A DNA stretch of 64,000 bases, taken from NCBI GenBank assembly GCA_001184205.1, contig LBMP01000002.1, positions 1 through 64,000 of the forward strand, written 5' to 3'. The notes below the pieces were generated by a model that searched no databases, was not told where the DNA came from, and saw only the letters and a list, made by a program, of their open reading frames with translations. Positions within the stretch are counted from its first letter, which is position 1, and every line of letters begins with the position of its first letter. Both the position numbers and the translations under genes were made by a program. This DNA is from Desulfocarbo indianensis. Its GTDB lineage: Bacteria > Desulfobacterota > Desulfarculia > Desulfarculales > Desulfarculaceae. Positions 26,590 through 44,995 of the stretch are shown piece after piece.

Positions 26590-29202
26590 ATGGTGATCAA
26601 GGCCATCAAAAAACTGTTCGGCCTGGGCCAGGAGGAGCCGCAGCTTTCCGCCGAGGAGGTGGGAAGCCTGCGCGACGCTTTCAAGGCCCGCTACCACAGC
26701 TTCAAGATGCTGCTGGCCGCCAACAACAAAGCCCTGGAACTCATGTCCGAGATGGAGCGGGCCCTACTGGGGGACCGGCCCTACGGCATGGCTTTCATCC
26801 GGGCCCATTGCACGGGCATAGGCGTCAACGTGTTTCAAATGGTGCGTTCCATGGGGGAACTCGCCCCGGAGCGTTACCAGGCCCTGCCCCAGCGCTTCAA
26901 GGATATCCAGGGCCGCATCAATCAGGAACTGGCTCGGCGCGAATCCGAGCAGGACCTGCCCCTGGTCGTATCCCTGGAGAGCGTGGACAAGGATTTCATC
27001 GACGTGGTGGGCTCCAAGATGGCCAACCTGGGCGAGGTGCGGAATCGGGTGGGCCTGGCCACCCCGGAAGGCTTCGCCCTCACCTCCAAGGCCCAAAGGC
27101 TTTTCTTTCAGCACAACCAGCTGCGCGAGGAAATCAACCGCCGCATCCAGGCCACCGATCTGGGCCGGGTGGAAAAGCTGTTCGATCTTTCCGCAGGCTT
27201 GCAGCAGCTCATCGTGCAGTCCCAACTGCCGCCGGAACTGACCGGGGAATTGCGGGCCGCCTATGCCCATCTGGAGAAACGGACTCGGCCGGGAGTAACC
27301 GTTTCGGTGCGCTCCAGCGCCCTAGGCGAGGACGCGGCCGGCACTTCCTTTGCCGGCCAATACCGCAGCCAGCTGAACGTGGCGTCCAGCAACCTGGAGG
27401 AAGCCTACAAGGACGTGGTGGCCAGCCTGTACAGCCCCCAGGCCATGAGCTACCGGTGGGGAAGGGGCCTGCCCGACGAGGACGTGGTCATGTGCGTGGG
27501 CTTCCTGGCCATGGTGGACGCGGCGGTGGGCGGCGTTACCTACACCCGCGATCCCCTGAACATCCGGGACAGCCGGCTTTTCCTCAATTCCGCCTGGGGC
27601 CTGCCCAAGAGCGTGGTGGACGGCGCGGCGGTGGTGGACGTCTTCGTGGTGGAGCGCGGCGAGGGCCTCCAGGTCGCGGAAAGGCGCATAGCCCACAAGG
27701 AGCAGAAATTCGTTTGCTATCCCGAGGAGGGCGTGTGCCGCCTGGACTTGACCGGCGATCTGGCCGGCGCGCCCTCGCTGAACGACGAGCAGGCCTTGGC
27801 CTTGGCCGAGGCGGGAATCCGCCTGGAGGAATACTACGGGGGAGCCCAGGACGTTGAATGGGCCCTTAATCAGGCCGGCGAGATCGTGATCCTGCAATGC
27901 CGGCCACTCCAACAGCAGGAAAAGGAGGCGGCGGCGGAGCGGCCCGTGCTGCCTTCGGGCGCCAGCCCCCTGATCACCGGCGGGGTGGCGGCCAGCCCCG
28001 GCGTGGCGGCGGGCAAGGTGTATTGGGTCAACAAGGACCGCGACGCCTTGGCTTTTCCCGACGGCGCGGTGTTGGCTTGCCAGCAGCCCTTCCCGCGGCT
28101 GGCGGCGCTGCTTTCGCGGGCTGCCGCGGTGGTGGCGGGCCAGGGCGGCATGGCCGGCCACATGGCCAACGTGGCCCGCGAGTTCGGGGTGCCGGCCCTG
28201 TTCGGCCTGGGCCGGGCGGTGGAATCATTGCGGCAGGACGACGAGGTCACGGTGGACGCCGAGGGCCTTAGCATTTACGCCGGGCGGGTGGAGGAACTGC
28301 TGGCGGCCGGCAGCCACCGGAAAAACCTGATGCTGGACAGCCCGGTGGCGAAAGTCATGGAGCGCGTGATCGAGCACGTGGCGCCGCTCACCCTCATAGA
28401 CCCGGACGCGGCCGAATTCAAGGCGGAGAGCGTGCAGACCCTGCACGACATCACCAGGTTCTGCCATGAGAAGTCGGTTCACGAGATGTTTTCCTTCGGC
28501 AAGAAGCACCATTTTCCCGAGCGCTCCTCCAAGCAGCTTTATTACAAGGTGCCCATGCAGTGGTGGATCATCAACCTGGATGACGGCTACCACGAGGAGG
28601 TGGAAAGCAAATACGTGCACCTGGAAAACATCGCCTGCCGGGCCATGCTGGCCCTGTGGGACGGGATGGCCGCGATTCCCTGGGAGGGGCCGCCCGCCAT
28701 GCACGGCCGGGGCCTGGCTTCGGTGCTTTTTCAGGCCACCACCAATCCCAACCTGGTGCCCGGCGTGAAGACCTCCTACGCCAATCTCAACTACTTCATG
28801 ATTTCCCGGAATTTTATGAGCCTGCATTCCCGTTTCGGTTTTCATTTTTCCACGGTGGAGGCGCTGGTGGGCGACCGGCCCCCGGAAAATTATATTTCCT
28901 TCACCTTCAAGGGCGGGGCGGCCGATTTCAAGCGGCGCCTGGCGCGGGTGCATTTCATCGCCGATCTGCTGGAAGAAAACGATTTTCGCCTGCGCCTGAA
29001 CGAGGACATGGCCGCCGCCAGGGTGGAGGGCCTGCCCCAGGCCGAAATGGAGGCAAAATTGCGGCTCCTGGGCTATCTGATAATGCATACCCGCCAATTG
29101 GACATGATCATGAGCGATCCCGCCGCGGTGGAGCAATACCGCAACAAGATGCGCGTGGATATTGCCAAGGTGCTGAACCTGACCGGTGACGCGCGGCCCT
29201 AG
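26590..29202 (+). CDS. PEP-synthase-like protein: ATP-grasp + phosphohistidine domain, no PEP/pyruvate barrel
   Basis: 870 aa. The first ~135 residues are helical and unrecognised. An ATP-grasp (PPDK_N-type) domain follows, with GSKMANLGEV, SVRSSALGEDAAGTSFAGQYRSQLNV (about 238-263) and the C-terminal YYGGAQDVEWALNQAGEIVILQCRPLQ. Next is a PEP-utilisers mobile domain with GMAGHMANVAREFGVPALFG, where His524 occupies the phospho-acceptor position; the usual T-S before the His is A-G. In PEP synthase and PPDK a large TIM barrel binding PEP/pyruvate comes next. Here the last ~300 residues (from about 565) lack its motifs and form an unrecognised domain with FGKKHHFPERSSKQLYYKVPMQWWIINLDDGYHEEVESKY. 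It closes the signalling operon. It may be a phosphotransfer or regulatory protein rather than an enzyme making PEP. Confidence 0.85.
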   Translation: MVIKAIKKLFGLGQEEPQLSAEEVGSLRDAFKARYHSFKMLLAANNKALELMSEMERALLGDRPYGMAFIRAHCTGIGVNVFQMVRSMGELAPERYQALPQRFKDIQGRINQELARRESEQDLPLVVSLESVDKDFIDVVGSKMANLGEVRNRVGLATPEGFALTSKAQRLFFQHNQLREEINRRIQATDLGRVEKLFDLSAGLQQLIVQSQLPPELTGELRAAYAHLEKRTRPGVTVSVRSSALGEDAAGTSFAGQYRSQLNVASSNLEEAYKDVVASLYSPQAMSYRWGRGLPDEDVVMCVGFLAMVDAAVGGVTYTRDPLNIRDSRLFLNSAWGLPKSVVDGAAVVDVFVVERGEGLQVAERRIAHKEQKFVCYPEEGVCRLDLTGDLAGAPSLNDEQALALAEAGIRLEEYYGGAQDVEWALNQAGEIVILQCRPLQQQEKEAAAERPVLPSGASPLITGGVAASPGVAAGKVYWVNKDRDALAFPDGAVLACQQPFPRLAALLSRAAAVVAGQGGMAGHMANVAREFGVPALFGLGRAVESLRQDDEVTVDAEGLSIYAGRVEELLAAGSHRKNLMLDSPVAKVMERVIEHVAPLTLIDPDAAEFKAESVQTLHDITRFCHEKSVHEMFSFGKKHHFPERSSKQLYYKVPMQWWIINLDDGYHEEVESKYVHLENIACRAMLALWDGMAAIPWEGPPAMHGRGLASVLFQATTNPNLVPGVKTSYANLNYFMISRNFMSLHSRFGFHFSTVEALVGDRPPENYISFTFKGGAADFKRRLARVHFIADLLEENDFRLRLNEDMAAARVEGLPQAEMEAKLRLLGYLIMHTRQLDMIMSDPAAVEQYRNKMRVDIAKVLNLTGDARP

Positions 29203-31844: not shown

Positions 31845-34616
31845 TCACTCCCCGGCCGGGCCGCGGTATTTAAGGGCCAAGAGGCTGACGTCATCGGCCG
31901 GCGGCGCGCCATGGCCGAATTCTCCCATTCCGCGGCGCAGGGCCTCCAGGATGCCGCCCAGGGATAGATGGAAAGAATCGGCGAGCAGGCCGGTAAGTCT
32001 ATCCTGGCCGAACATGTCTTCCTGCGCGTTCTGGTATTCCAGCACGCCATCCGTATAAAGCAGCAGCTTGTCGCCCGGCCGCAACTTGGCCTCTCCCTGC
32101 TCAAAGGACAAGCCCATGTCCAGACCGATTATGCTGCCGCCAGCTTCCAAATACTCCAACTCTCTCTTCTTCCTGAGCAGAACCGGCGGAGGATGGCCGG
32201 CGTTGGCATAGACCAGACGGCCGCTGGCCAGGTTCAGAACGATATAGGTTATGGTGAAATGCTTGCCGAAGCGTTCCAGGGGATATTGCCTGTCCAGGAG
32301 TTCCAGGACTTGCGCGGGCGGCATTATGCGGCCGTCCGAGTCGATTACGTTCCCGCTGTGCAATTCCAGCATGTCGTGCACGCTGACCGTGACCAGGGCG
32401 GAGGGTACCCCGTGCCCGCTTACATCCACCATGTAAAGCAGGAGATGATCCCGGTCCAGCAGGAAGGCTTCGAAGATATCCCCGCCTATGTGTTGGCTGG
32501 GCTGGAAGTGCCAGGCCATTTCGATCTCGGACCTTTGCGGCAGGCGCGCGGGCAATAAGGCTCGCTGGATGCCGGCCGCCGCCTCGAGGTCCTCGTCTAG
32601 GCGGGCTTGCTTGTCCAGCAACTCCCGGCTGGTCATTTCCGCCGCTTCCTTGGCTTTGGTGAGTTCCGCTTCATATCGCTTGAGCTGGGTTATGTCGCGC
32701 AGGATGCCGGTGAAGGTGGTGAGGCCGCCCCGGGTGACTTCGCCGACCGAGAGGTACAAGGGGAAATAGGTTCCGTCTTTTTTGCGGCCCATGGCTTCGC
32801 GGCCGATGCCGATGACGCGGGCTTCTCCGCCGGCCAGGTAGCGTTCCACGTATTCCTGATGGCGCGCGGCCACTTCGGGCGGCTGCAGCAGGCTCACCGA
32901 TTGGCCGATGACTTCCCGGGCGGAGTAGCCGAATATTTTTTCAGCGGAGGGATTGAAGCTTTCAATGGTTCCCTGCGCGTCGATGGTGACGATGCCCTCC
33001 ACCGCGTTGTTGACCACCGCCTTCAGCCTGGCTTCGCTTTCGGCAAGCTCCTGCGCCGATCGGTTGGCCTCGATTATGCTGGCCAAGATTTTTGCCACGG
33101 CCTCCCAAAATGAAGCGTCTTCCGCGCGCCGGACTTGGCCTTCCAGCAAATAGAGCACCATCACTCCCTGGCATTGGCCTCCGCCCATGATGGGCAGGCA
33201 ATAATGGCCGTGCGGCTGTATGCCGGGATAAGTGTTCTCGTGATGCGAATCCAAATGGGAGCTGTATTGCAATTCGCCGCTCTGGGCGGCCCTGCCGCAA
33301 TGGCAGCGGCCGAAGGGAACCCGCGCGCAGATGCTCAGCAGGGCGGGGTCCAAATCCTTGATCGCGGTCAGCCTTAGGGTTCGGGTTTCCCGGGGGTCCG
33401 TCAGAAATACCGCGCCGCGGGGCAGGATGCTCAGCCAGGGTATGGAGAGAACGATGGCCAGGGCTTCCTGTAGCTGGCGTTTGAGATCGCCGCCCTCCAG
33501 GGATATGGCCAGGAGGTTTTTAAGCGCCGCCTGGTGCTGGGCGTTGCGCTCCGCCAGCTCTTCCGCCAGGCGGCGGCGGGTCTGGTTGCGCGCCAAAAGC
33601 CAGGCGCCGATCCCCGCGCCCGCCGAGAGGGCCGCCCATAAGAGCATCATGGAGTGCAGGTACACGCCCACCAGCCGATCCACTTCCCCTGCGGGCACCA
33701 AGGAAATGAGAGTCCAGGTGGGCTTGGCCGGTAATTGGCCTTGCGGCTCGAATTTGCTGAAGGTGATCAGGCCCGCCCGGGTGAAAACCTGGCCTTGGTC
33801 CTTGGCCTGCATGATGGCCCAGGCTTTAGGATGAGTTTTTTGCATCCTATATTCCCGCCGCTCCGGGAAGGCGAACCCGAAAAGAAATTCGGGCTTCGCG
33901 CCCAACAGCCAATAGCCTCGCCGGTCCACCAGCATGGCCGTGGCCAGCTCCGGCAGGCTCAAAGTCAGTTCGTGCAAAAGTCCTTCCGCCAGATAGTTCA
34001 CGATCATGACGCCGATTCTCCGGCCGTTGCCGTCGAAAACCGGCCGCACGAAGCGCACGGTGGGTTTCCAGGGTATTTCGACCTTGCCGCGTTCGACGTT
34101 CAAATCAAGGGGGGAAATGAACTCTTCCGAAGGGCCCAGTTCGATGCCTATCTTGAAATAGTAGCGGTCCGATTTGTTCTGCAGTTCTTTTTCCGGAGTC
34201 AAAACGGGAGGGCCGCTTTGTCTGTCGGCGCGTAGCACCTCGCGGCCCGAGCAATCCAGAAAACGGATTTGGTCATAGATTTTGAAATTCCGCATCACCG
34301 TCAGGAACACGCCGGCCAAATAATCCTTGGCTTGTCGATCGGGAGGCTTGCGCCAATCCTGGAATACCGGCAGCTCCGCCAGGGTTTTGGTCACCTTGGA
34401 GGAAGACTCCAGCGCCGCCGATATGCGTCTGTGCATTATTTGGACGGCCTGCTTTTGCTGGACTAAAAGAATACGGCGTTCGCTGACGGTTTGTTGCTGA
34501 TAAAAAATATAAACCCCAAGGGTAATCAGCACGGCGGGAGGTAAAAACCATAATAAAAAATTTTTCAAGGCGCGCGGGAAGGCGCCATCGGGTGAGAAGA
34601 CCTGCTTGCCAGCCAT
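31845..34616 (-). CDS. RsbU-type membrane sensor phosphatase (dCache-GAF-PAS-PP2C)
   Basis: 923 aa. TM1 at about residues 19-41, a periplasmic dCache domain (about 45-330, with SDRYYFKIGIELGPSEEFISPLDLNVERG), and TM2 at about 331-352. Then a GAF domain with the C-H-C motif (FGRCHCGRAAQ), a PAS domain (LKAVVNNAVEGIVTIDAQGTIESFNPSAEKIFGYS), and a C-terminal SpoIIE/PP2C phosphatase: ALLPARLPQRSEIEMAWHFQPSQHIGGDIFEAF, DVSGHGVPSALV, NAGHPPPVLL, DKLLLYTDGVLEY and PPADDVSLL hold the metal-binding Asp/Gly positions. Such proteins dephosphorylate STAS antagonists. The divergent STAS gene at 34778 is the likely substrate. Confidence 0.92.
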   Translation of the reverse strand: MAGKQVFSPDGAFPRALKNFLLWFLPPAVLITLGVYIFYQQQTVSERRILLVQQKQAVQIMHRRISAALESSSKVTKTLAELPVFQDWRKPPDRQAKDYLAGVFLTVMRNFKIYDQIRFLDCSGREVLRADRQSGPPVLTPEKELQNKSDRYYFKIGIELGPSEEFISPLDLNVERGKVEIPWKPTVRFVRPVFDGNGRRIGVMIVNYLAEGLLHELTLSLPELATAMLVDRRGYWLLGAKPEFLFGFAFPERREYRMQKTHPKAWAIMQAKDQGQVFTRAGLITFSKFEPQGQLPAKPTWTLISLVPAGEVDRLVGVYLHSMMLLWAALSAGAGIGAWLLARNQTRRRLAEELAERNAQHQAALKNLLAISLEGGDLKRQLQEALAIVLSIPWLSILPRGAVFLTDPRETRTLRLTAIKDLDPALLSICARVPFGRCHCGRAAQSGELQYSSHLDSHHENTYPGIQPHGHYCLPIMGGGQCQGVMVLYLLEGQVRRAEDASFWEAVAKILASIIEANRSAQELAESEARLKAVVNNAVEGIVTIDAQGTIESFNPSAEKIFGYSAREVIGQSVSLLQPPEVAARHQEYVERYLAGGEARVIGIGREAMGRKKDGTYFPLYLSVGEVTRGGLTTFTGILRDITQLKRYEAELTKAKEAAEMTSRELLDKQARLDEDLEAAAGIQRALLPARLPQRSEIEMAWHFQPSQHIGGDIFEAFLLDRDHLLLYMVDVSGHGVPSALVTVSVHDMLELHSGNVIDSDGRIMPPAQVLELLDRQYPLERFGKHFTITYIVLNLASGRLVYANAGHPPPVLLRKKRELEYLEAGGSIIGLDMGLSFEQGEAKLRPGDKLLLYTDGVLEYQNAQEDMFGQDRLTGLLADSFHLSLGGILEALRRGMGEFGHGAPPADDVSLLALKYRGPAGE

Positions 34617-34777: not shown

Positions 34778-35131
34778 ATGCAGCCCATGCAGATGGAGAG
34801 CGAACAAATCGACGGAGTTCTGGTGGCCACTCCCCAGGAAGAACGATTGGACGCCTCGGTTGCGGGGGCCTTTAAAAACTTCATGGTGGACGTGTTGAAT
34901 CAGGGCCATCAAAGGGTGGTTCTCAACCTGGAGGACGTCCAGTTTATTGATTCCAGCGGGCTGTCAGCCATTGTTTCCGCGCTTAAATCATTCAGTCTGG
35001 CCGGGGGTGAAATGGTGGTTTGCGGCATCAATAAAAACGTGGCCGCTTTATTCAAATTGACCAGGCTGGACCATATTTTTCAGGTATTCACCAACAAGAA
35101 CGAGGCCTGCCAAATGCTCCTCAGCCAGTAG
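34778..35131 (+). CDS. STAS-domain anti-sigma factor antagonist
   Basis: 117 aa, one STAS domain. VVLNLEDVQFIDSSGLSAIVSALK contains the D-S-S-G phosphorylation loop (Ser60 most likely), and the family fold is completed by VCGINKNVAALFKLTRLDHIFQVF. AGGAGA precedes the ATG. In partner-switching systems the unphosphorylated STAS protein captures an RsbW-like kinase. The divergent RsbU-type phosphatase is nearby, but no RsbW kinase or sigma factor is in the window. Confidence 0.95.
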   Translation: MQPMQMESEQIDGVLVATPQEERLDASVAGAFKNFMVDVLNQGHQRVVLNLEDVQFIDSSGLSAIVSALKSFSLAGGEMVVCGINKNVAALFKLTRLDHIFQVFTNKNEACQMLLSQ

Positions 35132-35230
35132 CGCTGACGGCGCGTCATAGACCTGATAAGGGACCGGGTAACGCGCCTCCAAAAGGTGGGGACGCAATTC
35201 GCTCACCATGGGCAAGGAGCTTTCCCGGAG

Positions 35231-35938
35231 ATGAGGCAGTCTCTTCTAAACCGCCAGCAAATCGTGTTTCTGGTTTTGTTGGCGGTTGCGATCTTGGGGG
35301 CGCTGGGCTCTTACCGCCTGTTGCGGGGAGAGTATCTGGTCTATGCGCGGGCCCAGCGGCTTTTTACCTCCGGCGATTTCCCAGCGGCCATAACCGCCTA
35401 TAAACAGGCGCTGGAGCAAGGCTTGGAGCTTCCCGCCGCCGGCCTGCGCCTGGCGGACTCTTATATGGGCTTGCGCGATTTCCAGGCGGCGCTGCCCTAT
35501 CTGGAAAAATACCACCGCCAAAAGCCCCGCGACGTTAACGCGGCCGCGCGCCTGGCCGCTCTTTACAGCCAATTGGGCCGGCGCGAACAGGCCCTGGCCG
35601 TGGCGAACCAACTGTTGCCAGCCGACGAAAACGACCCGGCGGTTTTATTGCCCGTGGCTGATTTGTACAAGCAGCTTAAGGAATATGGAAACGCGCGGGC
35701 ATTGTACGGCCGGGTTTTGGCGCGGGAACAGGAAAACCGTAAGGCCTTGCTGGGATTGGCAGAGAGCAATGCAGGGACCGGCCAACATGAAAAGGCGGCG
35801 GAATTATACCGCCGGGTGTTGGCCGCCGATCCGGGAGACCGTTCCACCCGCATCCGTTTGGCCAGGGTCCTGACCTGGGCGGATGACAAAGAGGCCGCCA
35901 TTGCCGAATACCGCAAGGCGTTGGAGGAGGAACCATGA
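35231..35938 (+). CDS. Membrane-anchored TPR protein
   Basis: 235 aa from the ATG at 35231 (AAGGAG about 11 bases upstream; the earlier GTG at 35186 has no ribosome site). An N-terminal membrane anchor (QIVFLVLLAVAILGALGSYRLL) is followed by at least five TPR-like repeats, for example YARAQRLFTSGDFPAAITAYKQALEQG and ARALYGRVLAREQENRKALLGLAESNAGTGQHEKAAELYRRVLAADPGD. It is first of three TPR genes leading into the glycosyltransferase and overlaps the next gene by four bases (ATGA), so they are coupled. Confidence 0.88.
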   Translation: MRQSLLNRQQIVFLVLLAVAILGALGSYRLLRGEYLVYARAQRLFTSGDFPAAITAYKQALEQGLELPAAGLRLADSYMGLRDFQAALPYLEKYHRQKPRDVNAAARLAALYSQLGRREQALAVANQLLPADENDPAVLLPVADLYKQLKEYGNARALYGRVLAREQENRKALLGLAESNAGTGQHEKAAELYRRVLAADPGDRSTRIRLARVLTWADDKEAAIAEYRKALEEEP

Positions 35939-36627
35939 GCAAGACAGGGCTTTGGGCGCTGGGAATCCTGGTGGCGGCCGCCTTGTTGAGTCTCCCGCCC
36001 GCGATCTGGGCCCAGCCGAGGCCGGAGACGGGGCCGCCGGAAGGGCTGGCGGGCAAACCGGAGCTGACCGCGCCGGCCGCGGGGCCCAAAGAGGCCGGCA
36101 TGACCGCCGAGGGAGACGAGATACCGGGCTGGCGGGCGCGCTGGGAGCTGGCCCGCTTGCTTTCCTACGCCAAGCGCTACGACGATTCCCTGGCCCAATA
36201 CCGCAAGTTGCTGGCCGAAAAGCCCCGACTTGACCAGGCCAGGGCCGAAATGGCCAAGGTATTGTATTGGGCCGGGCAGCCGGGCGAGGCCCTCGCCGCC
36301 TTGGAGCAGATGCCCGCCGGCCAGGCCTCGCCGGAGGCCAAGCTGCTCAAGGCCGATTTGCTGGCGGCGGACAAACGCTACCCCCAGGCCCTGGAACTGT
36401 ATCGCGCCTATCTGGATGATAAACCGGACGACCTGGCCGCCCGCTTCCGGCTGGCCCAGGCGCTTTCCTGGACCGGGCAGTATCCGGCGGCGCTCAAGGA
36501 ATATGAGATCATCCTGGCCAAGCAACCGGATGACGTCCAGGTTCGGCGGTATTACGCATTCGTGCTCTCCTGGGCCGGCCAGTTCGCCAGGGCGGCCAGC
36601 GAGCTTGAAAAGACCCTGAAGGATTAG
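35935..36627 (+). CDS. Periplasmic TPR protein
   Basis: 230 aa with a signal peptide (SKTGLWALGILVAAALLSLPPAIWA) and a Pro/Gly-rich linker. About four TPR repeats follow: ARWELARLLSYAKRYDDSLAQYRKLLAEKP, ARAEMAKVLYWAGQPGEALAALEQ, KADLLAADKRYPQALELYRAYLDDKP and ARFRLAQALSWTGQYPAALKEYEIILAKQP. The LSWAGQ/LSWTGQ repeat variant is like that of YaiO/BcsC-type export proteins. Its stop is 10 bp before the GTG of the large TPR-barrel gene. Confidence 0.87.
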   Translation: MSKTGLWALGILVAAALLSLPPAIWAQPRPETGPPEGLAGKPELTAPAAGPKEAGMTAEGDEIPGWRARWELARLLSYAKRYDDSLAQYRKLLAEKPRLDQARAEMAKVLYWAGQPGEALAALEQMPAGQASPEAKLLKADLLAADKRYPQALELYRAYLDDKPDDLAARFRLAQALSWTGQYPAALKEYEIILAKQPDDVQVRRYYAFVLSWAGQFARAASELEKTLKD

Positions 36628-36637
36628 GAGAAGCGGC

Positions 36638-39346
36638 GTGCGCGGCCCAGTCATCGCCATGGCGGTAATCTGGCTGTGGACCGGCCTGGGCGCGGCCCAG
36701 GCGGCCGGCGTCGTGCCCCCCGCCGCCCAGATAAGCGATGAACAAGCGCGCCGGCAGTTAGCCAGGGTTTATACCTGGAGCGGCCAATACGAGCGGGCGC
36801 GGCGGTTGTATGTGAGCCTGGTGGCGGAGCACCGCCATGACGCCCAGTTGTTGCTGGACCTGGCGGGATTGGAAGCGGTCATGGGGCATGCCCAGGCCAG
36901 CCGCGAGCGCTTCCAAAAGGCCGCGCTTTTGGCCGGGGACAAAGAGGCCGCGAGCTTGGCGGAAGCCCAGGCCATGAGCCTGTGGGGCGATTTCTACAGG
37001 GCCGAGGCGATCTATCGCGCCAGGCTGGCAAAGCGCCCCCAGGACGGCCAAGCCGCCCTGGCCTTGGCCAGGGTGCTGATGAGTTCCCAGCGTTTCGAAG
37101 AGGCCGAGGCGGCCTATCTGCCCTTGTTGGCTCGGGAGGCGTTCAAGATAAAAGCGCTGGAAGGGCTCACCGAAGTGCAATGGGAAGCGGGCGATTTGGA
37201 GGGCGCCTTGCTCTGGGCCGGCAAGCTTTTGCAGGAGGACCCGGACGACGCCCTGGCCTTGCGGCTGCGGGGGCGGGCGCTTTTGCGCTTGGAGCGTTTC
37301 CAGGAAGCAAGGGACGATTACCTGCGCCTGTCCGGCCTGCGGGGAGCGGAGAGCGAGGGCCTTACGGGCCTGGGCCGGGTTGCCGCGGCCCAAGGCCAAG
37401 CCGAGGCGGCCATGGCCTATTTCCGCCAGGCCCAGGCCGCCGATCCCCAGGACGTGGAGGCCGCCTATTACGCGGCCGGCGAAGACAGGGCGGCCTCCGA
37501 TGATTTCCTCCACCAGCTCATCCCCAAGGAGAGCCAGTTCCCGGCCCGCTTGACCGCTTGGGCGCGGCTCTTTTCCCAGCATGGCCGCCATGCCGCCGCC
37601 ATCCGCTGTCTGCGCGCGGCCCTGGCCGCGGATTCTGATTATTTCCCGGCCCAGATGGGCCTGGCCGAAGCCTTGGCCGCGGACCGCCAATACCAGCAGG
37701 CCAATGAAATGCTGGGCCGGCTTGCCGGGGAATATCCAGGCGCTGCCAAGATTCTTCTCAGCCGGGCAAGGGTGTTGGCCTGGTCGCGGAGCTATGGCGA
37801 GGCCGTGCGGGTTTATCTGGCCATGCGCGAGCTCAACCCGGCCGATCCCGTTCCCCTGAAAGAAGGGGCCAGGGCCGCGGCCTGGGGCAAGGACCTGGAC
37901 CTGACCTGGGACTTGTATCAGCGCATGAACAAGCCCACGGTGGATAAGCTTCTGGCCGCCAGGCTTGGGGAGCAGAAAGCGACCTTCTCGGCCCGGACCC
38001 GGCGGCAACTGGACCAGGCGGGGCTTTTCGCCGCCGGAAAAAGCGGCGAAGCGGAGGGCGGCTTCGGGGCCTATGAGAAATTGGCGGCCGCCTGGCCGCA
38101 AATGGCCAAAGGCATGCCCCCGGCGGATCAAAAGGCGCTGGGACAAGTCATCCAGGACCTGCGGCCGGCCTACCGGGTGCATAAGGCGGCCTGGCTGGAA
38201 GCCGGGGGCAAGCGCGCCCTTTGGGAGCGCAGGTTCGCCAGCGCGGCGGCCATGGAGCAAGACCTGGTAGCCCTTTCGCCAGGCAATCAGGAAGCGCTTT
38301 TCGATCTGGCCCAGGCCCGTTGCGCCCTGGGTCTGTGCGACGAGGAAGGCCGGATTTATAAAAAGCTGTTGTCTCTGGACCCTCTGCACAACCAGGCGCG
38401 GCCGGCCCTTGAACGGCTCGAGATCAGAAAACGGCCGCGCGCGGCGGCGGGCTGGTCCTCTTGGCGCGAAGACGGCCGCGGCGAGGCCGCGCGCATGGCC
38501 CGCCAAAGGGCCGAGGCTTCCCTCACGGCGCCGGTGGCCTGCCGCTTTAAGATCAAGGCCGCCGGCCTGGCCTGGTGGGAAAGGCCCAAAAGATGGGGCG
38601 GCGAGGCCAGGGCGCGCGGCTTCAACCTGGAGGCGGACGGGCCGCTCAACGCCTACCTGAGCGCCGCCGTGGGCTGGACCCACAAGGACTATGAAAGCTG
38701 GGACTACGGCGACCGCGACAGCGGCTTCGGCGAGGTCTGGCTCAACCTTTGGGACCGCGCGCGCCTGGGGCTGGGCTGGCAGCGGGAGGACGTGGTGAAG
38801 AACGCCTTCAGCCTGCGCCAGGGCTCCCAGGCCGACGCCTGGTGGCTGGAGATAGGTTCCTGGCTGAGCCGCCGCTGGGAGGTCTCCGCCAGGTTGCGGC
38901 GGCTGGAATACAGCGACGGCAACCGGGCCCACTGGGAGAGTCTGACGGTGGGCTATGGCATCAGCGACCATCCCAGGGAATTGAAACTCGTCCTGGAGGT
39001 GAATTACCGCGACACCGAGGACGCCACGCTGGAGACATATCAGGGGGATCAGTTGGTGGCCATGCGCCATCCTTATTGGACGCCGCAGGATTGGCTGGGC
39101 GGGCTCTTGTCCCTGCAATGGCGGCATGATCTGGCCAAGCAAGAATTCTGCGGCGCGGAGCGGCATTACTATGACCTGCGCCTGAATCTGGGCGCCGAAA
39201 GCAAGGGCAACCCCGGCGCGGGCCTGGAGGCGGCTTGGCGTTGGGAATTCGCCCGGCGCTGGGATCTGGAGGCCAGGGGCACGGTCTATCGCTCCCGCGA
39301 ATGGGACGCCGATGGGCTGTGGTTAAGTTTGGGGTACCGTTTCTGA
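36638..39346 (+). CDS. TPR and outer-membrane beta-barrel exopolysaccharide export protein (BcsC/PgaA-like)
   Basis: 902 aa, GTG start with AGGAG nearby. Signal peptide (VIAMAVIWLWTGLGAAQAAG), then a long TPR superhelix (about residues 30-600) with LARVYTWSGQYERARRLYVSLV, ALARVLMSSQRFEEAEAAYLPLL and ILLSRARVLAWSRSYGEAVRVYLAMREL. The C-terminal ~250 residues are alternating aromatic/polar strands (LSAAVGWTHKDYESWDY, WLEIGSWLSRRWEVSARLRRLEYS) and end in LWLSLGYRF, a terminal Phe typical of outer-membrane barrels. This architecture matches the export porins BcsC, PgaA and AlgK-AlgE. It is placed two genes after coupled TPR genes and directly before a processive GT2 gene. Confidence 0.85.
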   Translation: MRGPVIAMAVIWLWTGLGAAQAAGVVPPAAQISDEQARRQLARVYTWSGQYERARRLYVSLVAEHRHDAQLLLDLAGLEAVMGHAQASRERFQKAALLAGDKEAASLAEAQAMSLWGDFYRAEAIYRARLAKRPQDGQAALALARVLMSSQRFEEAEAAYLPLLAREAFKIKALEGLTEVQWEAGDLEGALLWAGKLLQEDPDDALALRLRGRALLRLERFQEARDDYLRLSGLRGAESEGLTGLGRVAAAQGQAEAAMAYFRQAQAADPQDVEAAYYAAGEDRAASDDFLHQLIPKESQFPARLTAWARLFSQHGRHAAAIRCLRAALAADSDYFPAQMGLAEALAADRQYQQANEMLGRLAGEYPGAAKILLSRARVLAWSRSYGEAVRVYLAMRELNPADPVPLKEGARAAAWGKDLDLTWDLYQRMNKPTVDKLLAARLGEQKATFSARTRRQLDQAGLFAAGKSGEAEGGFGAYEKLAAAWPQMAKGMPPADQKALGQVIQDLRPAYRVHKAAWLEAGGKRALWERRFASAAAMEQDLVALSPGNQEALFDLAQARCALGLCDEEGRIYKKLLSLDPLHNQARPALERLEIRKRPRAAAGWSSWREDGRGEAARMARQRAEASLTAPVACRFKIKAAGLAWWERPKRWGGEARARGFNLEADGPLNAYLSAAVGWTHKDYESWDYGDRDSGFGEVWLNLWDRARLGLGWQREDVVKNAFSLRQGSQADAWWLEIGSWLSRRWEVSARLRRLEYSDGNRAHWESLTVGYGISDHPRELKLVLEVNYRDTEDATLETYQGDQLVAMRHPYWTPQDWLGGLLSLQWRHDLAKQEFCGAERHYYDLRLNLGAESKGNPGAGLEAAWRWEFARRWDLEARGTVYRSREWDADGLWLSLGYRF

Positions 39347-39353
39347 GGTGATC

Positions 39354-40997
39354 ATGGCCAAGGATGGAATCAGAAAAGCCTTCAGCGGCACCGTGGGCGC
39401 GGCCCTCTTGGTGCTCACCATGCTGTTCGTGTTTCTCTACCTGGCGGTGCGCACCATTATGTTTTTCGAGGCGGATTACCATTGGTATGAAAAGATCATG
39501 GCCGCCTTTTTGCTCTTGGCCGAAGTGTTCATCATGTTGCATTCATTTGGGTACTTCCTGAATATTCTGCACGTGATCAGGCACGGCGGCGGCGGGCCGC
39601 AGCCCGCCCAGGAGCCTCTGCCGCAACTGAAGACCTATCCGCCGGTGGCCATTTTGGTGGCGTCCTATCATGAGCCCTTGCATGTACTGGAAGACACCCT
39701 CACCTGTTTTTACAACCTCACCTACCTCAACAAGCAGCTCTATTTCCTCGACGACACCCGCTACGACCTGGAGACCGCCGACCAGGACGCGCTGGCCGCC
39801 TACCGGCGGGAAATAGACGAGCTTTGCCAGTCCATCGGGGTCAACCTTTTCCGCCGCCGCTGGCGCGGGGCCAAGGCCGGCATTATCAACGACTTCCTGG
39901 ATTTCATCGCCGGGCGCGACCAGGGCGGCTTTGAATTCACCCCTTACGCCGGGCAGTCCCGGCTTGAAACCGCCAAGTACGTCATCGTGTTCGACGCGGA
40001 TATGAACCCCTTCCCGGATTTCGTGGAGCCGCTGGTGGAGCGCATGGAGGCCAATCCCCGCCTGGCCTTCATTCAGACGCCCCAGTACTACAGCAACTTC
40101 GACAACAACCGGGTGGCGCGGGCCGCCGGTTTGCAGCAAGCGGTTTTCTACGAGTACATTTGCGAGGGCAAGAACATATCCGACGCCATGTTCTGCTGCG
40201 GGACCAACGTCATCTTCCGGCGGGAAGCCTTCGAGGACGTGGGCGGCTTCGACGAATCCTCGGTCACGGAAGACATAGCCACCTCCCTGAGATTCCACCT
40301 GAAGGGCTGGAGTTCGGCCTATCTGAACAAGGTGTGCGCCTTTGGCATGGGCCCCGAGGACCTGGGGGCCTATTTCAGGCAGCAGTTCCGCTGGGCCCTG
40401 GGCACCATCGGCCTGGGCCGGCATATGCTGGGGCAGTTCCTGCGCCGTCCCGGGGCATTGCCCCTGGGCAAATGGTGGGAGTACTTTCTCTCCGGCACCC
40501 ACTATTTCGTGGGCTGGGCCTTTTTCATCATGATGTCCTGCCCGATTCTTTACCTGATCTGGGGAGTGCCAGCCTATTTCGCCAAACCGGAATTATACTT
40601 TTTAGTGTTTTTCCCCTATATCGCCTTGTCCGTCTCCATCTTCCTGCTCACTCTGGAGCGGCGTCATTACGCGGCCAGGGATATGTTCATGGGCCAACTT
40701 CTCATCGGCTTGTCATTCCCGGTGATGATGAAGGCCTCTCTGCTGGGCATCCTGGGAGTGCGGGGAAGCTTCGGCATCACTCCCAAGGGGCGCAGTCTTT
40801 CCCTGCCCCTTTGGGGGCTGTGGCCCCAGGTGTTCATGTGCCTGCTGTGCGTCTTCGCCATCGCCTGGGGAGCCAACCGCTGGCTTTATGAGCCGGTGCC
40901 GGCCTTCGCGGTGGCCATGAACTGCTTTTGGTGCCTTTATCATCTGGTGATCGTCTCCACCAGCGTCATGTATTTCAATCGCCCGGTGACGGAGTAG
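39354..40997 (+). CDS. Processive family-2 glycosyltransferase (cellulose-synthase-like)
   Basis: 547 aa from the ATG at 39354. Two N-terminal membrane segments, a GT-A catalytic domain, and about five C-terminal membrane segments. The catalytic set of processive synthases is present: substrate Asp in FLDDTRYD, D214 in IVFDADMNP, TED with Asp307 in SSVTEDIATS, and Q343-Q-F-R-W347. GGTNVIFRREAFEDVGGFDE and FGMGPEDLGAYFRQ support the family. No C-terminal PilZ domain is fused, unlike BcsA; a separate PilZ protein is encoded nearby. It follows the barrel gene by seven bases. The polymer is unknown. Confidence 0.92.
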   Translation: MAKDGIRKAFSGTVGAALLVLTMLFVFLYLAVRTIMFFEADYHWYEKIMAAFLLLAEVFIMLHSFGYFLNILHVIRHGGGGPQPAQEPLPQLKTYPPVAILVASYHEPLHVLEDTLTCFYNLTYLNKQLYFLDDTRYDLETADQDALAAYRREIDELCQSIGVNLFRRRWRGAKAGIINDFLDFIAGRDQGGFEFTPYAGQSRLETAKYVIVFDADMNPFPDFVEPLVERMEANPRLAFIQTPQYYSNFDNNRVARAAGLQQAVFYEYICEGKNISDAMFCCGTNVIFRREAFEDVGGFDESSVTEDIATSLRFHLKGWSSAYLNKVCAFGMGPEDLGAYFRQQFRWALGTIGLGRHMLGQFLRRPGALPLGKWWEYFLSGTHYFVGWAFFIMMSCPILYLIWGVPAYFAKPELYFLVFFPYIALSVSIFLLTLERRHYAARDMFMGQLLIGLSFPVMMKASLLGILGVRGSFGITPKGRSLSLPLWGLWPQVFMCLLCVFAIAWGANRWLYEPVPAFAVAMNCFWCLYHLVIVSTSVMYFNRPVTE

Positions 40998-41000
40998 GCC

Positions 41001-42017
41001 GTGCGCGGGCGCTGGCTGTTTCTGCTCTGCCTCGCTTTGATGGCCGGCCAGGCGGCGCCCGCGCAGGCGGAACGGCCGGCATGCCGCCCGGCCTGGGGCG
41101 TGGCCTTGGAGGGCCTCCCCAACGCCCTCGACCTGGCCAGGGTCCAGGCGCAGACCGGGCTCCGGCCGCGCCTGGTGGTGTTTTTTCTTATGTGGCCGCC
41201 GCCCGGCCAGAAACAGGCTTTCCCCCAGGCCGCCCTGCAGGCCATCCACGCGGCCGGCGCCACCCCGGTCATAACCTGGGAACCCATGTATCTCGACGAA
41301 GAGGGCCGCGAAAGGACCATACTCCATGACCAGGTTTCGCGTGGCGAGTATGACGGTTACCTGCTGGAGTTCGCCAGGGCCTGCCGCGCCTGGGGCCGGC
41401 CCTTGATCATACGTTTCGGCCATGAGATGAATCTGGCCCGTTATCACTGGGGGGTCGCGGCCGAGCAATACGGCCCGGCCGCGCCGGCGGCTTATCAGCG
41501 CATGTTCCGGCAGGTGGTGCGGGCGTTCCGGCGGGCCGGCGCGGACAAGGCGCTTTTCGCCTTTTGCCCCAACGCCGAGAGCAATCCCCACCCGCAATGG
41601 CACGGCGCGCCCTGGAACCGGGCGGCGGCCTATTATCCCGGCCACGATTATGTGGATATCCTGGGCATGGACGGCTACAACTGGGGCGCCAGCCAGGGCC
41701 GGGCCGAAAAGGGCTGGGATTCGCGCTGGCAGAGTTTCGCGGAAATATTCGGGCCGCTGCGGGACGAGTTGCAGGCTCTGGCCCCGGACAAGCCGCTGGT
41801 GGTTTTCGAGACCGCCAGCGCGCGGGCGGGCGGCGACCGGGCCCGATGGGTGGGGGAGGCCAGGGAGGTTATGGCGCGCTGGCGCGCGGCGGCCTGGGTC
41901 TGGTTTCAGGTTAATAAGGAAATCGACTGGCGCTTGATGCCCGAGGCGGACGCCGGCGCGCTAAAGGTCTTGCGGGCCGGCGACGCCTGCGCCGGGCCCT
42001 GGCTGCCGGAGCCTTAG
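41001..42017 (+). CDS. Secreted glycoside hydrolase, GH26-like (beta-mannanase type)
   Basis: 338 aa, GTG start three bases after the synthase stop. Signal peptide RWLFLLCLALMAGQAAPAQA. The fold is a TIM barrel with WEP (WEPMYLDEEGRER), the GH26 acid/base motif RFGHEMN (Glu142) and the nucleophile in VVFETAS (Glu270). Further GH26 features are DILGMDGYNWG and WVWFQVNKEIDWRLM. GH26 enzymes mostly cut beta-1,4-mannan, and some cut beta-1,3-xylan or beta-glucans. Placement after a synthase parallels BcsZ or PelA, the editing hydrolases of exopolysaccharide systems. Its stop overlaps the convergent PilZ gene by four bases. Confidence 0.85.
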   Translation: MRGRWLFLLCLALMAGQAAPAQAERPACRPAWGVALEGLPNALDLARVQAQTGLRPRLVVFFLMWPPPGQKQAFPQAALQAIHAAGATPVITWEPMYLDEEGRERTILHDQVSRGEYDGYLLEFARACRAWGRPLIIRFGHEMNLARYHWGVAAEQYGPAAPAAYQRMFRQVVRAFRRAGADKALFAFCPNAESNPHPQWHGAPWNRAAAYYPGHDYVDILGMDGYNWGASQGRAEKGWDSRWQSFAEIFGPLRDELQALAPDKPLVVFETASARAGGDRARWVGEAREVMARWRAAAWVWFQVNKEIDWRLMPEADAGALKVLRAGDACAGPWLPEP

Positions 42018-42844
42018 GTCTCCTCCAGGGAGCGCAGATAAAGCATCACGCAGGTGTTGTAGTTGTAATAGAGCCTGCCTTCCAGGGTCTTGATGGCCTC
42101 CAAATATTGATTGACCACGTCGCTTTCAAAGGCTATGCGGAACAGTTCCAAGTAAAGCTCAGACTCCACCAGTTCCCGCAGATGCTCCAGGTCCAAGCCC
42201 GCCGCCACTTCCGAGTCGCCCAGGCCGGCCACAAGTTTCCGCAGATCGCCCAGTTCCTTTTCATGCTGGCTCACCCTGGACACGATGTCGTCCAGGAGCA
42301 TGCTCTTCAGGGCCTTATATTCCTCCTGGTTGAAGCCGCCCACGCGCGAGAAATAGGGCACCAAATGCCGCAGATAGATGTGAACGCCTTTTTTGAGGAG
42401 AAAGGCGTCCTTGATCACCATGGCCAGCAGGCCGGCCTGGCCCGAGAATTCGGCGAGGTCCACCTCCACGCCGCCTCCTTCCAGGTCCAGGAGCACGGGA
42501 TAGTAGGAGGGGACCGGATTTTCCAGACGAACTCCGCAGATCTGGGCGTCCAGGTCGTCGCTCCAACGGGTCCAGGCCACGGGTCCGGCGTCAAAGGTTT
42601 CGCCGTGCAGGTGAAAGGGAAGGTGCAGGTTGACCAGGTCGCCATTGTTGAGGCTTTCGCGGGCCAGGGCCCAACGGGGCAGTGCGATGCCCGCCCCCCG
42701 GCTGCTGGTATCGATCAATACATATTGAAAAGTCTGGTGGTCGGCCACCCGCGTGCCCAGAAAGGGAAGCGTGAAGGAAGAGACGGCCAGGCGCTCTTCC
42801 CGGCGCTGCTCAGTGCCTTGCCCTGTGCTGTCGGAGGGAGCCAT
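42014..42844 (-). CDS. PilZ-domain (c-di-GMP receptor-like) protein
   Basis: 276 aa. The N-terminal PilZ domain has the RxxxR motif (RREER, about residues 14-18) and the D-x-S-x-x-G motif (LIDTSSRGAGIALP), the two halves of the c-di-GMP site. A second PilZ-like/barrel half follows (GDLVNLHLPFHLHGETFDAGPVAWTRW). From about residue 125 there is a helical region without recognised domain. GGAG lies six bases before the ATG. It converges with the GH26 gene (stops overlap), so it sits inside the polysaccharide locus and may provide the c-di-GMP control that the synthase lacks. Confidence 0.88.
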   Translation of the reverse strand: MAPSDSTGQGTEQRREERLAVSSFTLPFLGTRVADHQTFQYVLIDTSSRGAGIALPRWALARESLNNGDLVNLHLPFHLHGETFDAGPVAWTRWSDDLDAQICGVRLENPVPSYYPVLLDLEGGGVEVDLAEFSGQAGLLAMVIKDAFLLKKGVHIYLRHLVPYFSRVGGFNQEEYKALKSMLLDDIVSRVSQHEKELGDLRKLVAGLGDSEVAAGLDLEHLRELVESELYLELFRIAFESDVVNQYLEAIKTLEGRLYYNYNTCVMLYLRSLEET

Positions 42845-43090: not shown

Positions 43091-43141
43091 TCGGGTCTGG
43101 GGGCAAGGCATGCCGTCCCGTCAATGAAAAGGGGGGTTATC

Positions 43142-44995
43142 ATGTTCTATATGCAGAGGCGCTTGGGCGCCTGGCAAGCGGGCGACGACAGGGAGGGGGG
43201 AAAGGCGGAGTTCCGGCTTTTTTTCCCTTTGGGTTTCGACCCGCAGATTCAAACCATTCAGGTGGCCGGCGATTTTCAGGAACAAGCGGGGCAGGGGCAG
43301 AACTGGGATTTTTGCGGGGGGCTGCAGCTTGAAAAGGAGGCGACCCCGGAAGGAAGCTTCTGGCGGGCGACCACGCCCCGGGAATTACCGGCCGGATTCT
43401 ATCAATACAAATACTACGTCACCTATCCCGGCGCGGAGCCCCGCATAATCAGCGACCCCTGCACCAGGTACGGCGGCGAGGAAAACCAAAACGCCGGCCT
43501 GGTCATCGGCGGCAGCCGTGCCCAGGACAACCTGGTGGCTCCCCTGGCCGGCGGCAGGCTGCCTCTGCGCGATCTCATCATCTACGAGATGCATCTGGAC
43601 GATTTCACCGACGAGTATCGCGGGGCGCGGGCTCCCCTGGACGCGGCCGGCGACGAGGACAAGCTGGACCACCTGCAAAGCCTGGGCGTCAACGCGATTC
43701 TGTTCATGCCCTGGACCACCTGGAAAAAACCGGATTTCGACTGGGGGTACGAGCCGTTCCAGTTCTTCGCCGTGGAATACCGCTACGTCAATCACCTGGA
43801 TAAGCACGCCGAGAAAATATCCCACCTGAAAAGGCTCATCTCCAAATGCCATGAGCGCGGCATCCACGTCATCATGGACGGGGTCTTCAACCACGTGAGC
43901 AAGGATTTTCCTTATCACTGGTTCTACAAAAACCCCGAGGATTGCCCCTACACCGGCTCCTTCGGCGGCACCTTCGAGGGCCTGCAGGACCTGGATTTCC
44001 ACAACCAATGCACCCAGGAGTTCATCCGGGACGTCTGCTTGTATTGGATGGACGTATTCAAGATCGACGGCATCAGATTCGACAACACGGTCAATTACCA
44101 CTGCTCCGGCGACGCCCGGGGGCTGCCCAAGCTCCTGGAGGACATCCAGGCGCATCTGGATTCCCAGGGCGAAGCCAATTTTTCCATGACCGTGGAGCAT
44201 CTGGACATGGGCGCGGCCCAGCTGGTCAAGAACACCCTGGCCACCAGCTATTGGGACAACGCCATGTTTGAGCACTGCTTCGAGTACCTCTGGCGGGACG
44301 AGATCGACAGCCGCATCCTGGACGCCTACAACAACAACCGCCATCTCGCCTCCCCGGACAAGGTGGCGACCATATACATAAGCAACCACGATCACTCCCA
44401 CCTGGCCTGGCAGTCCGGCGCCCGCTGGAATCTGGGCTCTTTCAAATGGTACAAAACCCAGCCCCACGCCATAGCCCTCATGACCTGCCCCGGCGCGCCC
44501 ATGATTCAGAACGGCCAGGAATTGGGCGAGGACTACTGGCTACCGGAGAACGACCACGGCACCGGCCGCCGGGTGCTGCCCAGGCCCCTGCGCTGGAAGC
44601 TGAGACGCGACCCCATCGGCCGGAGCCTCACGGCCCTATACTCGCGTCTGGCGGCCATCCGCCACGAGTATCCCGGCCTGCGTTCCAACAACTTCTACCC
44701 TCCGCGCTGGGAAGAATGGCAGACGCGCTTCAACCCGGCCGGCTATGGGGTGGACGTGGCCAAGCAAATGGTGGTTTATCACCGCTGGGGCGAAGGTGAG
44801 GAAGGCGAGTTGCAGCGGTTCGTCATCGTGCTGAATTTCTCCGACCGCAATCAAACCGTGCGGGTGCCGTTTCCGGAAAACGGCGTGTGGACCGATTTGT
44901 TGAACGGCCTGCGCGGCGACTGGCAAGTGGAGGTGGGCGACTATCAGTTGGATATTTTCGTGGAGTCCAATTGGGGGCGGGTGCTCTTCAAATGA
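43142..44995 (+). CDS. GH13 (alpha-amylase family) enzyme with N-terminal CBM48-like domain
   Basis: 617 aa. The ATG at 43142 with AAAAGGGGGG upstream is preferred over the ATG at 43124. An N-terminal beta-sandwich (about 10-130: FRLFFPLGFDPQIQTIQVAGDF, FYQYKYYVTYPGAEPRIISDP) resembles CBM48. The (beta/alpha)8 barrel has all four GH13 regions: DGVFNHV, GIRFDNTVNYH (nucleophile Asp314), VEHLD (acid/base Glu352) and ISNHDH (Asp417). Closest in style to GlgB/GlgX/pullulanase-type enzymes acting on alpha-1,4/1,6-glucans. No signal peptide, so cytoplasmic. It is downstream of the exopolysaccharide genes but on its own leader, so its role (glycogen or trehalose metabolism) may be separate. Confidence 0.9.
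   Translation: MFYMQRRLGAWQAGDDREGGKAEFRLFFPLGFDPQIQTIQVAGDFQEQAGQGQNWDFCGGLQLEKEATPEGSFWRATTPRELPAGFYQYKYYVTYPGAEPRIISDPCTRYGGEENQNAGLVIGGSRAQDNLVAPLAGGRLPLRDLIIYEMHLDDFTDEYRGARAPLDAAGDEDKLDHLQSLGVNAILFMPWTTWKKPDFDWGYEPFQFFAVEYRYVNHLDKHAEKISHLKRLISKCHERGIHVIMDGVFNHVSKDFPYHWFYKNPEDCPYTGSFGGTFEGLQDLDFHNQCTQEFIRDVCLYWMDVFKIDGIRFDNTVNYHCSGDARGLPKLLEDIQAHLDSQGEANFSMTVEHLDMGAAQLVKNTLATSYWDNAMFEHCFEYLWRDEIDSRILDAYNNNRHLASPDKVATIYISNHDHSHLAWQSGARWNLGSFKWYKTQPHAIALMTCPGAPMIQNGQELGEDYWLPENDHGTGRRVLPRPLRWKLRRDPIGRSLTALYSRLAAIRHEYPGLRSNNFYPPRWEEWQTRFNPAGYGVDVAKQMVVYHRWGEGEEGELQRFVIVLNFSDRNQTVRVPFPENGVWTDLLNGLRGDWQVEVGDYQLDIFVESNWGRVLFK

Follow-up and report, generated by a model that had tools for sequence, protein, structure and literature searches.

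A putative synthase-dependent beta-glucan cassette with a lichenase-like GH26 hydrolase in Desulfocarbo indianensis and other bacteria

Gene content and layout of the locus

The DNA analyzed here, hereafter the window, is a 64,000-nucleotide stretch of Desulfocarbo indianensis (contig LBMP01000002.1, assembly GCA_001184205.1; genome of 5.1 Mb, 98.65% complete), and it contains a compact gene cassette that appears to encode a synthase-dependent exopolysaccharide system with its own glycoside hydrolase of family 26 (GH26). The core of the cassette is an operon of five plus-strand genes. The first two code for tetratricopeptide repeat (TPR) proteins with Pfam TPR matches, namely TPR1 (35231..35938), in which a hydrophobic N-terminal segment seen in the sequence would anchor periplasmic repeats in the membrane, and TPR2 (35935..36627), a putative periplasmic protein with a signal peptide. 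They are followed by a TPR-barrel outer-membrane exporter (36638..39346), a processive family 2 glycosyltransferase (GT2) of the BcsA/BgsA superfamily without a PilZ domain (39348..40997; 549 amino acids; Pfam Glyco_trans_2_3), and a secreted GH26 enzyme (41001..42017). The gene for a PilZ protein (42014..42844, minus strand) converges on the GH26 gene, with a 4-bp overlap. Upstream, a STAS-domain protein resembling anti-sigma-factor antagonists is encoded directly before the operon (34778..35131, plus strand; Pfam STAS, 4.1e-21; TIGR00377), and divergently from it lies the gene of a SpoIIE-type PP2C phosphatase with CACHE-type sensor, GAF and PAS domains (31845..34616, minus strand; Pfam SpoIIE, 8.7e-44, with HK_sensor_dom_bact, PAS and GAF_2).

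Within the operon, TPR1 and TPR2 overlap by 4 bp, and the gaps that follow are 10 bp (TPR2 to barrel), 1 bp (barrel to GT2) and 3 bp (GT2 to GH26). The TPR1 reading frame is open from a GTG at 35186, but the ATG at 35231 is favored as the start because homologues align from residue 16. The signal peptides of TPR2, the exporter and GH26 were judged by inspection of the sequence alone, without a predictor. A preliminary description of this DNA had proposed just such a tight operon of two TPR proteins, a TPR-barrel protein, a GT2 and a hydrolase; the reading frames, the overlaps and gaps of at most 10 bp, and the Pfam families all bore this out. Its interval, 35231-42844, placed the genes accurately but was too short, since the STAS and SpoIIE genes belong to the conserved cassette; this partner-switch module (SpoIIE and STAS, in some loci with an RsbW-type kinase) and the wide distribution of the cassette had both been missed.

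The hydrolase resembles a lichenase

The GH26 protein scored 38.6 bits against Pfam Glyco_hydro_26, above the cut-off. In a phmmer search of the PDB, its best match was CtLic26A, the GH26 module of endoglucanase H, with 110 bits across almost the entire domain, whereas mannanases reached at most 26 bits. A five-sequence profile widened the separation to 200 bits for CtLic26A versus 61 for the best mannanase, and in this search the mannanase matches covered only the middle of the protein. The AlphaFold2 model, with a predicted local distance difference test (pLDDT) score of 89.6, pointed in the same direction: it superimposed on CtLic26A with a Z of 34.6 over 276 residues at 2.0 Å, while the next structural matches, a mixed-linkage xylanase and mannanases, had Z values of at most 22.5; the corresponding Foldseek E-values were 2e-24 and 1e-10. 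The acid/base E142 and the nucleophile E270 align with E109 and E222 of CtLic26A, and the motifs DGYNWG and NKExDWR are common to the two enzymes. The preliminary description had singled out the motifs RFGHEMN and FETAS, and rightly so, as their glutamates (E142 and E270) are invariant in 30 homologues. Its designation of the hydrolase as 'mannanase-type' has to be replaced, because by sequence and by predicted fold the enzyme is assigned to the CtLic26A lichenase subgroup.

Lichenase-like GH26 genes were also found outside the cassette. Of 40 GH26 loci that are more distantly related, 10 had a synthase-like GT2 gene at most 3.5 kb away, and a single further GT2 lay beyond that distance (256 kb searched near, 365 kb far), which argues that lichenase-like GH26 enzymes and glucan-type synthases pair repeatedly. 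In Arthrobacter, for instance, GH26 adjoins a protein of the Pfam Cellulose_synt family.

Several of these distant arrangements deserve mention in their own right. Lichenase-like GH26 genes stand beside Cellulose_synt-type GT2 genes in Arthrobacter, Sinomonas and Rhodococcus (L087:9533-12887, L077, L093, L095 and L102), with a STAS-like match after the GT2 in the actinobacterial loci L087, L093 and L095. A second GT2 lineage, whose two members score 784 bits mutually, accompanies a lichenase-like GH26 in a genome of the same phylum (L015:11205-14125) and in Desulfobacca (L098:1148-3400). Finally, in L018:1779-6205 and L019:6669-11314 another GH26 adjoins a giant GT2 that carries fused GH18-like and polysaccharide-deacetylase domains (domains by Pfam for L018), a quite different type of synthase.

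The synthase has the features of a beta-glucan synthase

The motif set of BcsA, CrdS and BgsA comprises D, D, D, QxxRW, KAG, QxPH/Q and FxVTxK (PMC6821405). The GT2 of the window carries it in full, as D136, D216xD218, TED (307-309), QQFRW (345-349), KAG, QTPQ and FGITPK, and the set is invariant or nearly so across the family, the V of FxVTxK being I or V in 34 of 36 members. Its closest PDB match was BcsA. Nonetheless, its scores fell far below both relevant equivalog cut-offs, with 222.9 versus 699.1 bits for cellulose synthase (TIGR03030) and 64.9 versus 422.3 bits for PgaC, and BcsB (PF03170) was absent from the 98.65% complete genome. In the phylogeny, the family formed one clade of 36 rows (Shimodaira-Hasegawa-like approximate likelihood-ratio support of 98) beside the BcsA and BgsA/CrdS groups, and was not joined with BgsA. 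The locus is thus a member of neither Bcs, for which BcsB, a fused PilZ domain and the equivalog score are lacking, nor Pga; the preliminary view of a synthase-dependent locus distinct from Bcs, Pga, Pel and Alg held up in this respect. It had also noted that the GT2 has no fused PilZ domain, and indeed the protein ends at 549 amino acids, the GT2 reading frames of related loci are about 540-580 amino acids long with no PilZ-sized C-terminal extension, and a Rosetta-stone search of the related loci found no fusion of PilZ to any GT2 of the family.

Residues at the channel entrance, given in RsBcsA numbering, were compared over the nearly ungapped stretch from QxP to FxCG. In RsBcsA, Asn298 and Tyr302 are among the residues that touch the glucan (PMC6821405). 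The family has Q276, Q298, K309 and C317, all four of which are common to a CrdS-like reference and a Bradyrhizobium BgsA-like protein; Sinorhizobium meliloti BgsA agrees at 276, 298 and 317 and has R at 309. The BcsA references have H at 276, N or G at 298, L or N at 309 and F at 317. On these residues, the sequence comparison leans towards a synthase capable of 1,3 linkage. Two alignments disagreed at the transmembrane positions 412, 417 and 477, which were left out of the comparison.

It is to be noted how the references were chosen. The CrdS-like reference (L111) is an Agrobacterium GT2 beside an exporter-like and a hypothetical gene in a crdASC-like order, and is not a verified CrdS; a GT2 from the 470-515 kb region of pSymB (L107) was considered as the true CrdS and dropped, as key motifs are missing. 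The BgsA reference on pSymB was picked by search, by its HlyD-like partner and by neighbor annotation in other strains rather than by locus tag. One other GT2 (L113) was uninformative.

The exporter

The exporter consists of a signal peptide, a TPR superhelix at about residues 34-597 and a C-terminal barrel at 601-901. Its AlphaFold2 model (902 residues, pLDDT 91.7) shows the superhelix together with 16 long strands and a terminal Phe. In Foldseek, the barrel matched the PgaA barrel (4y25; TMt 0.78) and PelBC (9h80; 0.69), and also BcsC (6tzk and 9b8a). The model therefore identifies the protein as a TPR plus predicted 16-stranded barrel of the BcsC/PgaA/PelB type.

Conservation, distribution and co-inheritance of the cassette

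Among 148 relatives, close GT2 homologues (E < 1e-60) and close GH26 homologues were found in exactly the same four genomes. In the loci of the three other genomes (L012, L013 and L014), TPR1, TPR2, barrel, GT2, GH26, PilZ and STAS genes were all present, and the SpoIIE gene was present in L012 and L014. The order was not rigid: in L014, the PilZ gene runs in the same direction as GH26, whose end it overlaps, and STAS and SpoIIE lie on the opposite side; PilZ is also co-directional with GH26 in several of the loci L039-L050. That the gene set persists in a changed order speaks for function and not for frozen synteny.

A wider scan with the GH26 alignment against 84,980 species genomes yielded 80 loci. 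Those with a GH26 score above about 250 bits and sufficient flank hold the cassette, while the next group, below 180 bits, has no close GT2, truncated contigs excepted. Genes were tallied in the 36 loci that have flanking sequence: barrel and GH26 were found in all 36, GT2 in 35, TPR2 in 32, PilZ in 22, STAS and TPR1 in 20 each (with another TPR anchor in nine more) and SpoIIE in 18. The layout is therefore not due to chance, and the question whether GH26 beside a TPR-barrel and GT2 recurs in other genomes, raised in the preliminary description, is answered in the affirmative. By record titles, the hosts are Desulfobacterota of several orders, Opitutaceae, another Verrucomicrobiota bin, Lentisphaerae, Ectothiorhodospiraceae, Thiocapsa, Parachlamydiaceae and Anoxychlamydiales, i.e., at least five phyla (Desulfobacterota, Verrucomicrobiota, Chlamydiota, Gammaproteobacteria, as listed, and Lentisphaerota). 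Carriers in culture include Dethiosulfatarculus sandiegensis SPR, Pseudodesulfovibrio pelocollis SB368 and Thiocapsa imhoffii DSM 21303. GT2 distances correlated with those of GH26 (r 0.82), barrel (0.86) and PilZ (0.89), the range with TPR2 included being 0.80-0.89, and none of 2000 permutations reached the observed r, which argues that the parts travel together. The phyla are interleaved on the GT2 tree, which suggests transfer, although many of the hosts are metagenome bins. Neither a decorating enzyme nor a transporter was seen as a conserved gene in or near the cassette in the 36-locus tally, and the same tally showed no conserved PgaB-type gene.

The occurrence of the cassette in the chlamydial bins L057, L058, L059 and L060 (Parachlamydiaceae and Anoxychlamydiales) is unexpected for that phylum. 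Two other genes of the window may be recorded here. A GH13 alpha-amylase-type enzyme is encoded at 43124-44995, just downstream of the PilZ gene; it was not recognised among the genes that related loci keep next to the cassette. At 26590-29202 lies the gene of an 870-residue protein with PPDK_N and phosphoenolpyruvate (PEP)-utiliser domains and no PEP-binding catalytic domain, in which the C-terminal approximately 300 residues have no Pfam family.

Regulatory genes: PilZ and the partner switch

The PilZ protein scored 23.5 bits against PF07238 (cut-off 22.5), with the domain at its N-terminus, and carries both cyclic di-GMP (c-di-GMP) motifs, RREER (RxxxR) and DTSSRG (D/NxSxxG). Among the 22 homologues, RxxxR is present in 18 and DxSxxG in most; the degenerate copies are chlamydial (L058 and L060), from Opitutaceae, and one other. 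The 22 GGDEF matches of the host genome imply that c-di-GMP signaling is present. The separate, convergent PilZ gene with its 4-bp overlap and intact motifs is as the preliminary description had it; control by c-di-GMP in trans, which was also suggested there, may be regarded as plausible on these motifs. The C-terminal 180 or so residues of the PilZ protein, i.e., two thirds of it, have no Pfam family and are strongly conserved, e.g., at N261, Y262, N263 and Y269.

The phosphorylatable serine of the STAS protein (S59, in the DSSG motif) was kept in 19 of 20 homologues. The sensor domains of SpoIIE vary among the 18 loci that have it, with REC in L012 and CHASE-PAS in L014. An RsbW-like HATPase_c_2 kinase is encoded beside 14 related loci, L046 and L050 among them; no partner-switch kinase was found in the window, where a weak match near 58000 lies within an ordinary histidine kinase. 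No sigma factor or diguanylate cyclase was seen as a conserved gene beside the partner-switch genes. In one locus (L036:526-2340), a SpoIIE phosphatase and an RsbW-like HATPase kinase seem to form a single fusion protein, which would hold both halves of the switch.

Comparison with known systems

The closest analogy is with Bcs (BcsA-BcsB-BcsZ-BcsC), which likewise has a BcsA-superfamily synthase, a TPR plus 16-strand barrel exporter, an in-operon beta-glucanase and PilZ control. The cassette differs from it in the lack of BcsB, the separate PilZ, GH26 in place of GH8, two additional TPR proteins, a GT2 clade of its own and the partner-switch genes. By analogy, its mode of operation would be that of a synthase-dependent system of the Bcs type that has a cognate glucanase. 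The S. meliloti BgsBA system resembles it in a BcsA-like synthase without PilZ and in the QxPQ, Q298 and FCCG residues, but no TPR-barrel or GH26 partner is described for BgsBA, and its synthase is about 26% identical to the GT2. BgsBA includes a HlyD-like partner and binds c-di-GMP through a C-terminal tail (PMC5567048). RiGT2 of Romboutsia ilealis is another bacterial BcsA-like synthase with a mixed-linkage product, which is only proposed for the present system; it is of Gram-positive origin and requires its fused C-terminal PilZ domain for activity (PMC10374906). The curdlan system, CrdASC, has a BcsA-superfamily synthase with common channel-entrance residues, but its product is a pure 1,3-glucan. 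CrdASC is not known to contain a hydrolase or a TPR-barrel exporter. Pga (which makes poly-N-acetylglucosamine), Pel and Nfr/NGR share the TPR plus barrel exporter, the barrel model here matching PgaA and PelB, but have another synthase family or a distant GT2 and another hydrolase or deacetylase. CtLic26A itself, from Clostridium thermocellum, is a cellulosomal enzyme that degrades plant glucan and does not act as the partner of a synthase in an operon. The regulatory genes, in turn, resemble SpoIIE/STAS/RsbW switches in having a phosphatase, a STAS protein and, in the 14 loci, the kinase. No description of a GH26-paired synthase operon was found in a literature search confined to open-licence papers.

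Nature of the polymer

Taken together, sequences and models make it probable that the locus encodes a synthase-dependent beta-glucan exopolysaccharide system, most likely one for mixed-linkage beta-(1,3;1,4)-glucan. The machinery and the glucan class are well supported by the sequence evidence, and the polymer is very probably a beta-glucan of some kind; mixed linkage, over pure 1,4 or pure 1,3, is what we infer, at close to an even chance. The pairing of a glucan-type synthase with a lichenase-like enzyme, much as BcsZ matches cellulose, makes a mixed-linkage glucan the most parsimonious product. In such a system, the GT2 would polymerise glucose, presumably from UDP-glucose, and push the chain across the inner membrane; TPR1 and TPR2 would form a periplasmic scaffold that hands it to the exporter, which would release it via its 16-stranded outer-membrane barrel. 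The GH26 enzyme may take the role of BcsZ and trim, edit or clear periplasmic or nascent polymer. Output would be gated by the separate PilZ protein, through presumed c-di-GMP binding and a presumed target, and by the partner switch; this is most likely wired so that the CACHE/GAF/PAS sensors of SpoIIE drive it to dephosphorylate STAS, which may then free or activate the synthase or a partner.

The main competitor is cellulose, a pure beta-1,4-glucan with GH26 replacing the GH8 enzyme BcsZ, which we consider unlikely though worth taking seriously. The nearest solved synthases are BcsA, the exporter resembles BcsC, and position 302 has the BcsA residue; however, the equivalog score is far too low, the GT2 lies in a separate clade, the genome has no BcsB, Q276, Q298, K309 and C317 are unlike both BcsA references, and the partner hydrolase is lichenase-like. 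Lichenases cleave 1,4 links adjacent to a 1,3 link (PMC7997180). A hetero- or other beta-glucan, either a curdlan-like 1,3-glucan or one decorated by unlinked genes, is improbable: the four channel-entrance residues also occur in the CrdS-like reference, but a pure 1,3-glucan is no substrate for a lichenase and the cassette has no conserved decorating enzyme. The preliminary description had pointed to a beta-mannan-like or other beta-linked polymer. A beta-mannan or glucomannan is now very improbable; GH26 is mostly a mannanase family and both the HEMN and the nucleophile motifs are present, but the mannanases trail the lichenase in profile score and coverage and in structural Z (about 22 versus 34.6), and the motif set of the synthase is of the beta-glucan type. 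It is least probable of all that GH26 is a nutrient-scavenging enzyme in the operon by accident. Secreted lichenases do usually break down plant glucan, but here the gene stands beside the exporter in every tallied locus, its distances follow those of the synthase, no conserved transporter lies nearby, and the hosts include sulfate reducers and chlamydiae, which are not obvious feeders on plant glucan.

Several points weigh against the mixed-linkage proposal itself. Identity of the GT2 to BcsA and BgsA is only about 25%, and the deep placement of its clade rests on long branches, with the deeper joins unsure. Y302 of the family is the BcsA state, unlike BgsA or CrdS, so that the linkage signature is mixed. 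The GH26 enzyme is only about 30% identical to CtLic26A, if over the whole domain, and such identity does not fix substrate specificity. Lastly, in many loci PilZ and STAS are either missing or beyond the sequence in view, and are hence not obligatory.

Significance

Mixed-linkage beta-glucan has long been regarded as a polymer of plants, fungi and lichens, and the literature found contains two characterised bacterial synthases for it, those of Sinorhizobium and Romboutsia. We tentatively suggest, at somewhat less than even confidence, that the cassette represents a new, widely transferred synthase-dependent class through which anaerobic sulfate reducers, purple bacteria, Verrucomicrobiota and Chlamydiota produce mixed-linkage beta-glucan, and that it may be the first to have a lichenase of its own and to be controlled by a partner switch together with PilZ in trans. 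Conserved and equipped with its own lichenase-like enzyme, the cassette can serve as a genomic marker for bacterial beta-glucan production in at least five phyla, including chlamydiae; it offers a matched pair of synthase and hydrolase whose specificity is directly testable, and adds a partner-switch layer to the known control of polymer synthases by c-di-GMP.

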